Below are positions 18,105 to 21,605 of a stretch of DNA of 21,605 bases, piece after piece. The first letter of the stretch is position 1; every line of letters begins with the position of its first letter. This stretch comes from a virus. Both the position numbers and the translations under genes were made by a program. Below the pieces are notes generated by a model that saw nothing but the letters and a program-made list of their open reading frames with translations, was not told where the DNA came from and searched no databases. The stretch spans positions 1-21,605 of IMG/VR virus record IMGVR_UViG_3300025815_000137. The stretch is one strand, 5' to 3'.

Positions 18105-18112
18105 CATAAATA
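18105..18112 (+). promoter_or_regulatory. Candidate late promoter for the exported-protein operon
   Basis: CATAAATA differs in one base from the T4 late box TATAAATA. It lies 35 nt before the ATG at 18147, which would give a leader of about 28 nt containing a strong AGGAG (18137-18141). It sits in the only divergent gap here (18086-18146) and is followed directly by an inverted repeat. Confidence 0.5.
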
Positions 18113-18146: not shown

Positions 18147-19010
18147 ATGTGTGTTGTCGTTGCAAAATATCTTCCTGAGTACGGTTGGGTTCTTGCTAAA
18201 AACAGGGACCGTAACTACAAACCCGTTGTTTCTATTAAACAATCTAATAGAAACGGCGTACAAAGATTGTACATGCAAGATGATAAGACTCGTTACACTG
18301 AAGGTGTAAACGAACACGGTGTGGCTATTCTTTCTGCATCTATTATGGTTAAGAAAGATGAGAAGGAAGGCGCTGCTGCTGGTTCAGATGATCAGTCTGA
18401 GAGAACTTACTACGCTCCAGATGGTATTCGTATCAGAACTGCTCTGTTTAAAAGAAGTGCAAAGTCTGCCCTGAACACTCTTATTAGACTTCAGATTCCG
18501 GGAAATACTTTAATTGCAGACGACAATGAGTGTTACATTCTGGAAGGAGCATTCAGAGACTATCACGGTCCTAATAAAAAATACGAATATACTTTCAAAA
18601 AACTTAAAAAGACTGACGGTATTGTGAGAACAAATCACGGTATCGACATGCCTTGGGCTGGTTATCAAAACAACAAAGATAACCCACATGAAAAGGCTTC
18701 TAGAAAGTCTTCTGAAAATAGAATGAAGATTGTTCTTCAGCAACTGAAATCCATCAAAACACCTGAAGATATGTTACAAGTTCTTTCTTCTCAACCCGAA
18801 AAAGATCCACAAATGAATCCTTTGAGGCATGATGAGAAAAGAAAAGCTATGAGAACTACAGGTCAACTTCTTTGTATTCCAAAGGAAAGAACCTTACACT
18901 ACAGACCAACATATTCAGAAATTACACTAAAAAATTATAATGCATTAAACAACCAGAAGAGTAAAACCTTCTTCGAAGTGATTTCATCTAGAAAATTATT
19001 CGACATTTAA
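18147..19010 (+). CDS. Ntn-hydrolase-fold protein (NRDE/choloylglycine-hydrolase-like)
   Basis: This 287-residue protein begins Met-Cys (MCVVVAKYLPEYGWVLAKNRDRNYKP). A Cys at position 2, exposed by Met removal, followed about 17 residues later by NRDR or a similar motif, is the layout of Cys-type Ntn hydrolases: choloylglycine hydrolase, acyltransferase and the NRDE/TANGO2 family. Further fitting parts are RYTEGVNEHGVAILSAS (the GVNEHG turn, about 49-65), NTLIADDNECYILEG (about 118-132) and GIVRTNHGIDMPWAG (a TNH motif after a strand, as in the family). Asp21 and Arg20 would be active-site partners. It probably cleaves or transfers an amide or acyl bond on an unknown substrate. It lacks a signal peptide, so it acts in the cytoplasm, yet it leads an operon of exported proteins. 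AGGAG lies 5 nt before the ATG. Confidence 0.7.
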   Translation: MCVVVAKYLPEYGWVLAKNRDRNYKPVVSIKQSNRNGVQRLYMQDDKTRYTEGVNEHGVAILSASIMVKKDEKEGAAAGSDDQSERTYYAPDGIRIRTALFKRSAKSALNTLIRLQIPGNTLIADDNECYILEGAFRDYHGPNKKYEYTFKKLKKTDGIVRTNHGIDMPWAGYQNNKDNPHEKASRKSSENRMKIVLQQLKSIKTPEDMLQVLSSQPEKDPQMNPLRHDEKRKAMRTTGQLLCIPKERTLHYRPTYSEITLKNYNALNNQKSKTFFEVISSRKLFDI

Positions 19011-19019
19011 GGACATGAA

Positions 19020-19586
19020 ATGTTTAAAAGACTGCTACTCGTAGCAGTGTTATTTGTTATTCCAAATATTGCATTTTCACAAAATGAACCGATAGTGACT
19101 GAAAATTACACTGAAAGCACTGTTGACACAAAATCGGAATCTACCACTACGGTAATTTCGGCACCGCCTTCTGCTATTGCACCAAACCTCAATACGGCAA
19201 ACTCTGACCTTTGTACGGTTGGAGTTTCAGGTGCTGTTCAAACGCAAATCTTGGGAATATCTGCTGGATCGACAGTTCGAGACATGAACTGTGAAAAACT
19301 CAAAAATGCTAAAACACTTTATGACATGGGAATGAAAGTTGCAGCCGTATCTGTGATGTGTCAGGATCCTAGAATTTTTACTGCCATGATGAATGCGGGA
19401 ACTCCCTGTCCTATCGATGGTATGATTGGAGAACAAGCCAAAGAAGAATGGGACAAGCCCATCAACCAAGATCGTAGACCAGACTCAGAAAACAATAGAG
19501 GCATTAACATTGACTCAGAAACTCGTACTACCCTTATTGGCGGTGCTATCGTTGTCGGTGTTCTGGCATTACTCTTGGGCGGATAG
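19020..19586 (+). CDS. Exported protein with C-terminal membrane anchor
   Basis: This 188-residue protein has a clear signal peptide (MFKRLLLVAVLFVIPNIAFS, cleavage expected before Gln21). A Ser/Thr-rich linker (29-60) leads to a compact domain with four Cys (65, 91, 114, 130), for example SDLCTVGVSGAV and SVMCQDPRIFTAMMNAGTPCPIDG, which could form two disulfides in the periplasm. The C-terminus is a membrane segment with Gly-rich ends (TLIGGAIVVGVLALLLGG, 171-188). I recall similar exported proteins in other T4-like marine phages, but know no function. A short GGA-type ribosome site lies just after the upstream stop. Its last 77 nt also encode the signal peptide of the next gene in another frame. 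Confidence 0.75.
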   Translation: MFKRLLLVAVLFVIPNIAFSQNEPIVTENYTESTVDTKSESTTTVISAPPSAIAPNLNTANSDLCTVGVSGAVQTQILGISAGSTVRDMNCEKLKNAKTLYDMGMKVAAVSVMCQDPRIFTAMMNAGTPCPIDGMIGEQAKEEWDKPINQDRRPDSENNRGINIDSETRTTLIGGAIVVGVLALLLGG

Positions 19587-20430
19587 CATTTATGGTGTAA
19601 CCAACAATGCAGCACAAGATGCTCTTAGTTGGTCAATGACTGGTGTTTTACCAGACTTCACTTCTCCTAACGTAACCTTACAGGTCAACGGCATAACTTA
19701 CTATTACGTTATATCAAAAGATCCCGCTGAAGATGTTAAAGTATACGTTCGTAATGAAGATGCTGTAAACGGTGGTTACATTTTTGAAGAAGTTGACGAT
19801 TGGTCAGGACTTCCGGGAAACTCCATTCAAAAGAACTTCAGGTTTGCTGGAATACCGGGAGAACAATGGGGACAAGGAAGCATGGACGTAGAAGGAAATG
19901 GGACAATATCCGACCCTTCTATGTTTTATTCTTACAGAATGGATATAACACCAGATCAAGTTGTTTGTACAAATCCACTTTCAGATCCAACGTGTCCGGG
20001 TTTCCTGAACGCTGTTTATAAATACGTAAGCGGGATTCAAGTCATGACGCCAGATGAAGAATTTTATGAATACTGGCTTGAATTTAAAGAATCTCAAAAA
20101 ATTGAACTTGAAAAAGATGATGTAGTTGAAAATTTTTTTGAAGAAGAAGAAGATGAAGATTTAGAACGTCTTTTAAGATCTGATCCAAAAGTCGGTGGTT
20201 TAGTAGACCTCAACCGACAACAGGAAATGCTTAAAAAACTTAATCCAGAACCTCTTCTTGTTCCATACTACCAAGTTGAATATCAGGGAAACGAATACCC
20301 TGACAAAAATATCATTGATGATAAAGAAATGCCTGATAATAACAGGGCGTTGAGACAACTGGCAGGATCAGCCAGATATTATTCTATGGTGCGCTCTCAG
20401 TATGACAGAGAAGAACTAACCGGAGAATAA
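19510..20430 (+). CDS. Exported acidic protein with signal peptide (TTG start)
   Basis: The frame has no ATG near its beginning. I choose TTG at 19510: AGAGG (19497-19501) lies 8 nt upstream, and the product then starts with a textbook signal peptide, MTQKLVLPLLAVLSLS..., ending SWA before Asp25. This gives 306 residues. The mature N-terminal part is beta-rich (VTLQVNGITYYYVISKD; VKVYVRNEDAV; NFRFAGIPGEQWGQGSMDVEGNGTI), with two Cys close together (VVCTNPLSDPTCPGF). A helical, strongly acidic part follows (EEEEDEDLERLL), and then a Tyr-rich C-terminus. It is probably periplasmic or surface-exposed. I do not recognise a family with certainty. The overlap with the preceding gene's membrane segment is 77 nt. 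Confidence 0.7.
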   Translation: MTQKLVLPLLAVLSLSVFWHYSWADSIYGVTNNAAQDALSWSMTGVLPDFTSPNVTLQVNGITYYYVISKDPAEDVKVYVRNEDAVNGGYIFEEVDDWSGLPGNSIQKNFRFAGIPGEQWGQGSMDVEGNGTISDPSMFYSYRMDITPDQVVCTNPLSDPTCPGFLNAVYKYVSGIQVMTPDEEFYEYWLEFKESQKIELEKDDVVENFFEEEEDEDLERLLRSDPKVGGLVDLNRQQEMLKKLNPEPLLVPYYQVEYQGNEYPDKNIIDDKEMPDNNRALRQLAGSARYYSMVRSQYDREELTGE

Positions 20431-20431
20431 A

Positions 20432-20929
20432 ATGTTAAGAACTATCTTTGCATTGTCTACGCTTTTTATTGCAGGATTTGCTTATGCAGAATCTGTTCCA
20501 ATTATAGGCAATGTCTCATCCAAGTGCAGCATTTACACTGACACGTCTGGTGTTTATGGAAACCCAACCCCAGATGCACTAAGCACAGATCCTGTAGATG
20601 GTGGCGTATTCCCTATCGTAAGATATGACGTTACCATTGCAGATTATTACACTGCTAAAATTTCTTGGCCTCAATCATTTGTGTCGTCACCAAGCTTGAC
20701 CGATGCTCTCAATTGGGACGGAGAAGTAACTGTTTCGTCAACATCTGACGCTTTGATGTCTGGTTATGAAGCAGCCAAAGTAGAATATGACAATGTAACA
20801 GAATACGATCTTTCTGTTGCTGGTTCCACATGGTTTCAAATTGATTCCGAAGTGACTTATGGATTCGGAAAATCATTTCCGGGTGGCGAGTATTCTGCAA
20901 ATATCACAGCAGAGTGCATTGCAAACTGA
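20432..20929 (+). CDS. Exported beta-sandwich protein, fimbrial-subunit-like
   Basis: This 165-residue protein has a signal peptide (MLRTIFALSTLFIAGFAYA, cleavage before Glu20). The mature part has an early Cys (VSSKCSIYTDTSGVYG) and a late Cys (GEYSANITAECIAN), with beta strands between (RYDVTIADYYTAKISWP; GEVTVSSTSDALMSG; YDLSVAGSTWFQID). A Cys near each end and a final GxYxAxIT strand recall secreted Ig-like or pilin-like domains (spore coat U or DUF4402 type). This is a loose resemblance, not a firm family call. GGAG lies 6 nt before the ATG, inside the last codons of the preceding gene, and the stop overlaps the next start (TGATG). Confidence 0.7.
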   Translation: MLRTIFALSTLFIAGFAYAESVPIIGNVSSKCSIYTDTSGVYGNPTPDALSTDPVDGGVFPIVRYDVTIADYYTAKISWPQSFVSSPSLTDALNWDGEVTVSSTSDALMSGYEAAKVEYDNVTEYDLSVAGSTWFQIDSEVTYGFGKSFPGGEYSANITAECIAN

Positions 20930-21303
20930 TGAAAAGGTTTATTGCAGCAGTAGCAGTTATATTTTTAGCTGCTACTGCACAAGCTCACGAATGGACACCT
21001 ACCTACCCTAAGTTCAGACCTTCGTTCTTAGACGACATTGTCGTGACTACTATGAAACTTTTCAACAAAAGAAAAGAGATAGAGTACTATGAAATTTCTG
21101 TTTACGATGAAGACTGGAACACAATTCGATTTGCTACGCCAAATAAATTAATAAACGTTCCTTATCTAGGTCAAAAGACTGTTGAAATTTACATCAGAGA
21201 AATTGACTGTGAACGTATAGAATATATCTGCACTACTTCTAGAAGATTTGTAGATGACGCAGAATCAACTGGCATAGATTCAAGAATATGCTCAAAGGTG
21301 TGA
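20929..21303 (+). CDS. Exported small beta protein, possibly chaperone-like
   Basis: This 124-residue protein has the signal peptide MKRFIAAVAVIFLAATAQA (cleavage before His20) and the mature start HEWTPTYPKFRPSFLDDI. It continues with alternating strands: VTTMKLFNKRKEIEYYEISVYDED, TIRFATPNKLINVPYL, KTVEIYIREIDCERIEYICTTSR, ending in SRICSKV. The layout (N-K-R followed by a strand, then a hydrophobic strand pair) vaguely recalls the first domain of periplasmic pilus chaperones, but I cannot establish that. I chose the ATG at 20929 (TGATG with the preceding stop) over a GTG at 20914, since it gives a clean signal peptide. Three Cys are present. A similar exported protein seems to occur in other marine T4-like phages. 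Confidence 0.7.
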   Translation: MKRFIAAVAVIFLAATAQAHEWTPTYPKFRPSFLDDIVVTTMKLFNKRKEIEYYEISVYDEDWNTIRFATPNKLINVPYLGQKTVEIYIREIDCERIEYICTTSRRFVDDAESTGIDSRICSKV

Positions 21304-21305
21304 CG

Positions 21306-21605
21306 ATGATCAATTACACATGGAGTAGACTTCTACTCATTTCACTCATATTTCTACTATTTTACACATCTGTTGCATTTGGTCAATCCAGCAGTTCTTT
21401 AAACCTATCTCTTCCTTCTGCTCCCGGCAGCTACCAATCAGATAGGTTTAAAGCAGGAGATCTGGACTGTTCTAATGCAATCGGCTCTGCAACAAATTTA
21501 GAATTTGGGGTCACTGGCATTATCGGGAGAGGGTATACCGATCCTTTAAGTGGTTACGTTGATTCTAGAGTTGGTGACGTTGGCGTCTTTGCTAGAATTA
21601 CTATC
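21306..21605 (+). CDS. Exported protein, N-terminal part (runs off the window)
   Basis: An ATG 3 nt after the preceding stop opens a frame that continues to the window edge (100 codons seen). The start has a long hydrophobic signal segment (LLLISLIFLLFYTSVAFG, within residues 9-26). The mature part follows with SSSLNLSLPSAPGSYQSDRF, then AGDLDCSNAIGSATNLEFGVTGIIG and VGDVGVFARITI. One Cys is seen. The repeated beta-type segments suggest an outer-membrane or surface protein. It is the fifth consecutive product with an export signal. Its family cannot be decided from this part. Confidence 0.75.
   Translation, partial: MINYTWSRLLLISLIFLLFYTSVAFGQSSSSLNLSLPSAPGSYQSDRFKAGDLDCSNAIGSATNLEFGVTGIIGRGYTDPLSGYVDSRVGDVGVFARITI

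Follow-up and report, generated by a model that had tools for sequence, protein, structure and literature searches.

The virus contig considered here ends in five consecutive genes (A to E) for exported proteins, which together with a sixth gene (F) form a cassette of constant order in many uncultured marine phages of two kinds. The window, that is, the whole stretch of DNA that was analysed, is the entire 21.6 kb contig of a T4-like phage, the baseplate protein of which is nearest to those of T4-like phages of Stenotrophomonas, Methylophilales, Caulobacter and Pelagibacter (34-39% identity). With a probability of about 0.4, the cassette may specify an usher-less, late, periplasmic chaperone-subunit complex that would probably act on the envelope close to the time of lysis. 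The structural part of this reading is moderately supported; we infer the role in lysis, as well as the pairing of C with D, the formation of a complex, the membrane topology and the late timing. The features of the window are as follows.

18105..18112, + strand: CATAAATA, a box resembling a T4 late promoter, before the operon; same position in loci L002, L004, L009-L012, L027 and L049
18147..19010, + strand: C45/AAT-like Ntn hydrolase, cytoplasmic, heading the operon of the window but outside the cassette
19020..19586, + strand: gene A; leader, stretch rich in Ser/Thr, domain with Cys, hydrophobic tail at the C-terminus
19510..19586, + strand: A/B overlap; 3' end of A and leader of B in two frames
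19510..20430, + strand: gene B, TTG start; leader, probable beta domain, acidic middle and conserved C-terminus, from alignments of relatives (28 in the first collection)
20432..20929, + strand: gene C; Ig-like exported protein, its N-terminus bearing a donor-strand signature as in pilins
20929..21303, + strand: gene D; exported single-domain protein resembling domain 1 of the chaperone PapD
21306..21605, + strand: 5' part of gene E; leader, conserved domain, C-terminal probable coil; the contig end cuts the gene

The preliminary description had pointed to five tightly coupled exported products in a row, and this observation is confirmed: all five ORFs are present on one strand, coupled or overlapping, with signal-peptide-like leaders, and both leaders and order are kept in relatives. 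These relatives were gathered from IMG/VR with B, C or D as bait, so that the presence of these three is not independent; A and E never served as bait. The collection comprises 239 viral loci with 163 distinct versions of B. The order A-B-C-D-E on one strand is found in 182 complete internal loci of the 239, and shorter gene patterns mostly reflect contig ends, or gene calling and split genes. Leaders were scored with a lenient, home-made test, not SignalP, in which later start codons were also allowed for A to E. They were found in 121/121 versions of A, 156/163 of B, 146/146 of C, 143/144 of D and 132/132 of E, that is, in 96-100% per family, versus 29% of other ORFs in a similarly lenient test, and are therefore not a matter of chance. 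The relative frame of the A/B overlap, commonly 65-80 nt long, is identical in 144 of 145 loci. Consequently, the hydrophobic tail of A and the leader of B are encoded by shared DNA.

Beyond these five genes, gene F, which encodes a membrane anchor with a coiled coil, is present in all 105 loci that extend 3 kb or more downstream. From a reading of its sequence, F is predicted to be a type II inner-membrane-like protein with an N-terminal helix and a periplasmic coil. Gene G, encoding an EF-hand membrane protein, lies downstream in 55 of the same 105 loci. Pairwise distances of B to E correlate at 0.85-0.88 and, as far as sequences tell, the cassette is thus an invariant unit that is inherited together. 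Such strict conservation, with a fixed order across 163 distinct B versions and two kinds of phages, makes it probable that the module performs one joint job.

Loci L002 and L004 are near-identical to the window (A 100%, B 98-100%, C 99%, D 92-94%, E 96-100%), which allows the sequence beyond the window edge to be read; the complete gene E, for instance, is found at L002 7994-8434. D diverges by 6-8% from its counterparts in L002, L003 and L004, in contrast to the 98-100% identity of A, B and C, which points to either recombination or selection on D. Small additional genes occur around the cassette. A small lipoprotein with an A-like motif overlaps the start of A in two Roseobacter phages, CRP-207 and CRP-810 (L033 1725-1938, L036 4690-4948), and in a T4-like subgroup a lipoprotein of the GCSLIPSRWDDNEA type directly follows F (L075 9303-9701, L099 2275-2667). 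CRP-207 gp73 (L033 3292-3873), annotated as a putative lysozyme, resembles F, with a membrane anchor and a coil.

The structure of D was predicted. Its AlphaFold2 model (pLDDT 87.9) superimposes on the chaperone DraB with a VIA Z of 10.4 (rmsd 2.3 over 95 residues), and FimC, Caf1M, SafB, PapD and CsuC are aligned with Z values of about 9-10.4 in VIA-align; the best Foldseek match is FaeE (E 1.2e-4). Non-chaperone Ig-type domains reach about equal scores, and therefore the result is a statement on fold: the model of D has the fold of a PapD-type chaperone domain 1. At this level, the earlier impression that one product loosely resembles a periplasmic chaperone is borne out. Whereas the chaperones of chaperone-usher systems have two domains, D has only the first; it counts 124 aa, ends at the last strand and is of about the same length in all 59 aligned members. 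No sequence-level signal was obtained with hhalign between D and eight K-12 chaperones. The mature start of D aligns with residue 1 of FimC/PapD, and the invariance of His20, just after the predicted cleavage site, suggests that the leader is cleaved. Furthermore, Cys101 and Cys121 are invariant among the 59 members and lie, 20 residues apart, on the two final strands. This is reminiscent of the FGL chaperones, for example Caf1M, in which an F1-G1 disulfide is conserved (PMC4133393), the likeness being one of strand position. Unlike D, FGL chaperones also have an N-terminal extension of 12-14 residues (PMC4133393).

For C, the fold prediction is Ig-like (pLDDT 90.7). The top Foldseek matches are pilins (CfaB, the PapG pilin domain and FimF), with E values of about 2e-3 (best 1.9e-3, none below 1e-3). 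In VIA the best Z is 7.8, with Gram-positive adhesin domains first; chaperone-usher pilins are absent among the top rows, which does not exclude a pilin. With no Foldseek match below 1e-3 and Z under 8, the pilin-like fold of C is weakly supported and not proven. Fold prediction, which had been proposed as a check and covered C and D, thus yields a chaperone domain for D and an Ig-like C with a weak pilin match. The N-terminus of mature C, for example ESVPITGNVSSKCSI, displays an alternating pattern with Gly and Cys as in K-12 pilins (FimA VHFKGEVVNAACAV), and C shares with chaperone-usher pilins the arrangement V-x-I-x-G-x-V-x3-C. This donor-strand motif is present in 110/146 versions of C and 12/17 K-12 pilins, as opposed to 0/560 other cassette proteins and 3/2057 other ORFs; as the C versions are mutually related, it counts as one observation and not as 110. 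A C profile matches K-12 pilins with a probability of 62 (E 8e-5; controls at most 14), part of the match being leader sequence. At the level of sequence, the N-terminus of C thus has a pilin-like donor-strand signature, and of the initial comparison of one product with a fimbrial subunit it is this signature, rather than the fold, that holds.

Ahead of the cassette, the product of 18147-19010 has no place among the five exported ones, as it is itself not exported. It matches NCBIfam C45 (E 8e-10, below the family cut-off) and Pfam AAT (E 0.005), and its second residue is Cys. According to neighbour clusters, not all relatives have such a gene: it stands first in the operon in about 10 non-redundant loci. 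The position of CATAAATA at 18105 is kept in most relatives with the C45-like gene, which agrees with the late-type promoter previously placed at the head of the operon, but the window contains eight NATAAATA sites and the assignment is only suggestive. Downstream of A to E, L002, L004 and other loci encode an SNase-like nuclease and several membrane proteins, namely small ones, the one with the EF-hand and the coiled-coil F.

As the most likely mechanism, we propose that A to E and F constitute one phage module, made late, the products of which would be exported into the periplasm by the host Sec machinery. D, with its single PapD-type domain, would most likely hold C, the pilin-like Ig subunit, by donor-strand complementation, and would let C assemble with B and E, perhaps together with additional copies of C, into a complex or short fibre. 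F could tie this assembly to the inner membrane through its N-terminal helix, with the coil in the periplasm, and the hydrophobic C-terminal tail of A is a probable second tie. As no usher or CsgG is encoded, the complex would most likely stay in the envelope, where it would act as infection ends, probably as part of the disruption of the outer envelope or close to that event. The invariant gene order, the constant presence of F, the correlated distances and the conserved leaders argue for such a joint assembly, as do the chaperone-domain match and the two invariant cysteines of D and the donor-strand motif of C. Against it stand the missing second domain of D, its lack of a sequence match to K-12 chaperones, the similar scores of non-chaperone Ig folds, and the weak fold match of C together with a profile match that is partly leader.

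The link to lysis is drawn from the podophage-type genomes, in which A to G directly precede holin and endolysin genes. Downstream of the cassette, contig G017 encodes a GTA_holin_3TM protein (E 1e-23) and a GH108 protein (E 2e-31), and G013 a GH19 protein (E 6e-9), all from Pfam; a holin- or endolysin-type gene follows in 16/16 podophage-labelled loci with 3 kb downstream. In DB2, a cassette-less relative with a capsid 71% identical to that of G013, the endolysin comes shortly after the homologous small gene, and A to G therefore look inserted in the podophage-type genomes. However, a lysis-type gene, in this case a lipase or SleB-like gene, is nearby in only 10/54 T4-like loci, which weakens the preferred reading. 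Class 3 lipase genes near the cassette in T4-like carriers are found at L116 10376-11104 and L143 9301-10059 (Pfam E 5e-24 and 4e-23).

The strongest competitor, although doubtful, is a surface or periplasmic fibre that alters the surface of the infected cell. As has been suggested for phage curli, it would serve to exclude superinfection, to aggregate cells or to capture siblings. It would account for the chaperone- and pilin-like parts, and curli modules have been described in Pelagibacter phages (PMC7029224, PMC9599517). Furthermore, about 21/140 non-redundant loci have small secreted OMP-like genes upstream (for example L143 6168-6518, L116 5612-6481 and L028 5414-5803). Yet neither an usher (PF00577) nor CsgG (PF03783) was detected in 24 long carrier contigs (32-219 kb, completeness not known), while the controls, in the case of the usher from E. 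coli, rang; a fibre would thus have no known exit through the outer membrane. The location of the podophage cassette within the lysis region also speaks against it. In comparison with chaperone-usher pili, the cassette is phage-borne, lacks an usher and specifies, besides C and D, three exported proteins as well as a membrane protein with a coiled coil.

A direct replacement of spanins, with F as an i-spanin-like protein and A to E in the place of the o-spanin, is possible from the sequences but of low probability. Phages without spanins are an open problem (PMC6139136), and F, to judge by its sequence, shares with known spanins (Rz/Rz1, T1 gp11; PMC6139136) the layout of an inner-membrane anchor, an N-terminal helix and a coil, while in podophages the cassette lies beside holin and endolysin genes. 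A home-made lipobox scan revealed no credible lipoprotein gene, in any frame, in nine podophage-type carriers, whereas in cassette-less DB2 the endolysin is followed by an o-spanin-like ORF, at 23616. The absence is not specific, however, since the same scan gave no credible lipoprotein in phiM5, NV1 and Venkman either, as far as their sequences were read, and these phages have no cassette. Conversely, Pro-rich o-spanin-like lipoproteins are encoded by T4-like G001, which carries the cassette, and probably by G004 and G006 as well, a finding that counts against the preferred reading as well. Because of these two observations, the idea that the cassette simply replaces spanins is not upheld. 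In contrast to spanins, the cassette comprises five extra exported proteins, among which no outer-membrane lipoprotein o-spanin was found: A to E as a rule have no lipobox (lipobox-like sequences in 5/121 A, 5/163 B, 1/146 C, 1/144 D and 0/132 E), and an embedded lipobox ORF is present in 7/134 F genes.

It is improbable that the products are virion-associated proteins joining the particles during or after lysis. The late-gene position in podophages, between tail/head and lysis genes, would fit, but leaders are kept in nearly every member, His20 of D suggests cleavage, and A to E have no match to virion families. Finally, the suggestion that the pore and other parts of a secretion system, be it of the curli type (type VIII) or another, lie past the right edge of the window is very remote, because the search for CsgG and usher genes that had been advised was negative in the 24 carriers and the genes that follow the cassette in L002, L004 and further loci are different, which leaves only the analogy with pelagiphage curli (PMC7029224, PMC9599517), likewise phage-borne export cassettes in marine phages of Gram-negative bacteria but with unrelated proteins in a different genomic place, and hence a separate system.

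The cassette is present in T4-like and in podophage-type contigs (G013, G017). On a B-E tree of 131 loci the two types are apart with one label change, 59 of the 157 labelled loci being too short for a phage-type assignment, so it was exchanged between phage kinds at least once. C and D have no match among 50,697 phage records, and when 84,980 species genomes were scanned with C, only three phage contigs were retrieved, all in metagenome bins. Gene A matches phrog_20531 (E 1e-15) and has relatives in Pelagibacter, Roseobacter and a few other phages, such as HTVC115P gp54, HTVC023P gp45, Mosig_00202 and CRP-207 gp75 (about 34-55% identity). HTVC115P also encodes an F-like protein, as cassette carriers do, but phages with phrog_20531-type proteins lack C or D in the same records. 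Homology of B to the long acidic proteins at the B position in Pelagibacter phages is not claimed (probability 6.8, C-terminus alone). Profiles of B, C, D and E gave no credible match in the PDB, and A to E no meaningful one in PADLOC or NCBIfam, where families of anti-phage and superinfection-exclusion proteins were of interest, although absence from a library decides little.

None of the parts of the cassette has a named function, C and D are absent from the cultured phage records searched, and no description of such a cassette was found in the literature. In its widest form, which we consider unlikely, the proposal would be that two unrelated tail types of marine phages share a transferable six-gene machine, which uses pilus-style, usher-less donor-strand chemistry to build a periplasmic fibre or complex; during lysis, this structure would remodel or break the outer envelope. 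The module may provide an answer to how phages without spanin genes pass the outer membrane, or it may show that phages build pilus-like structures in their hosts.
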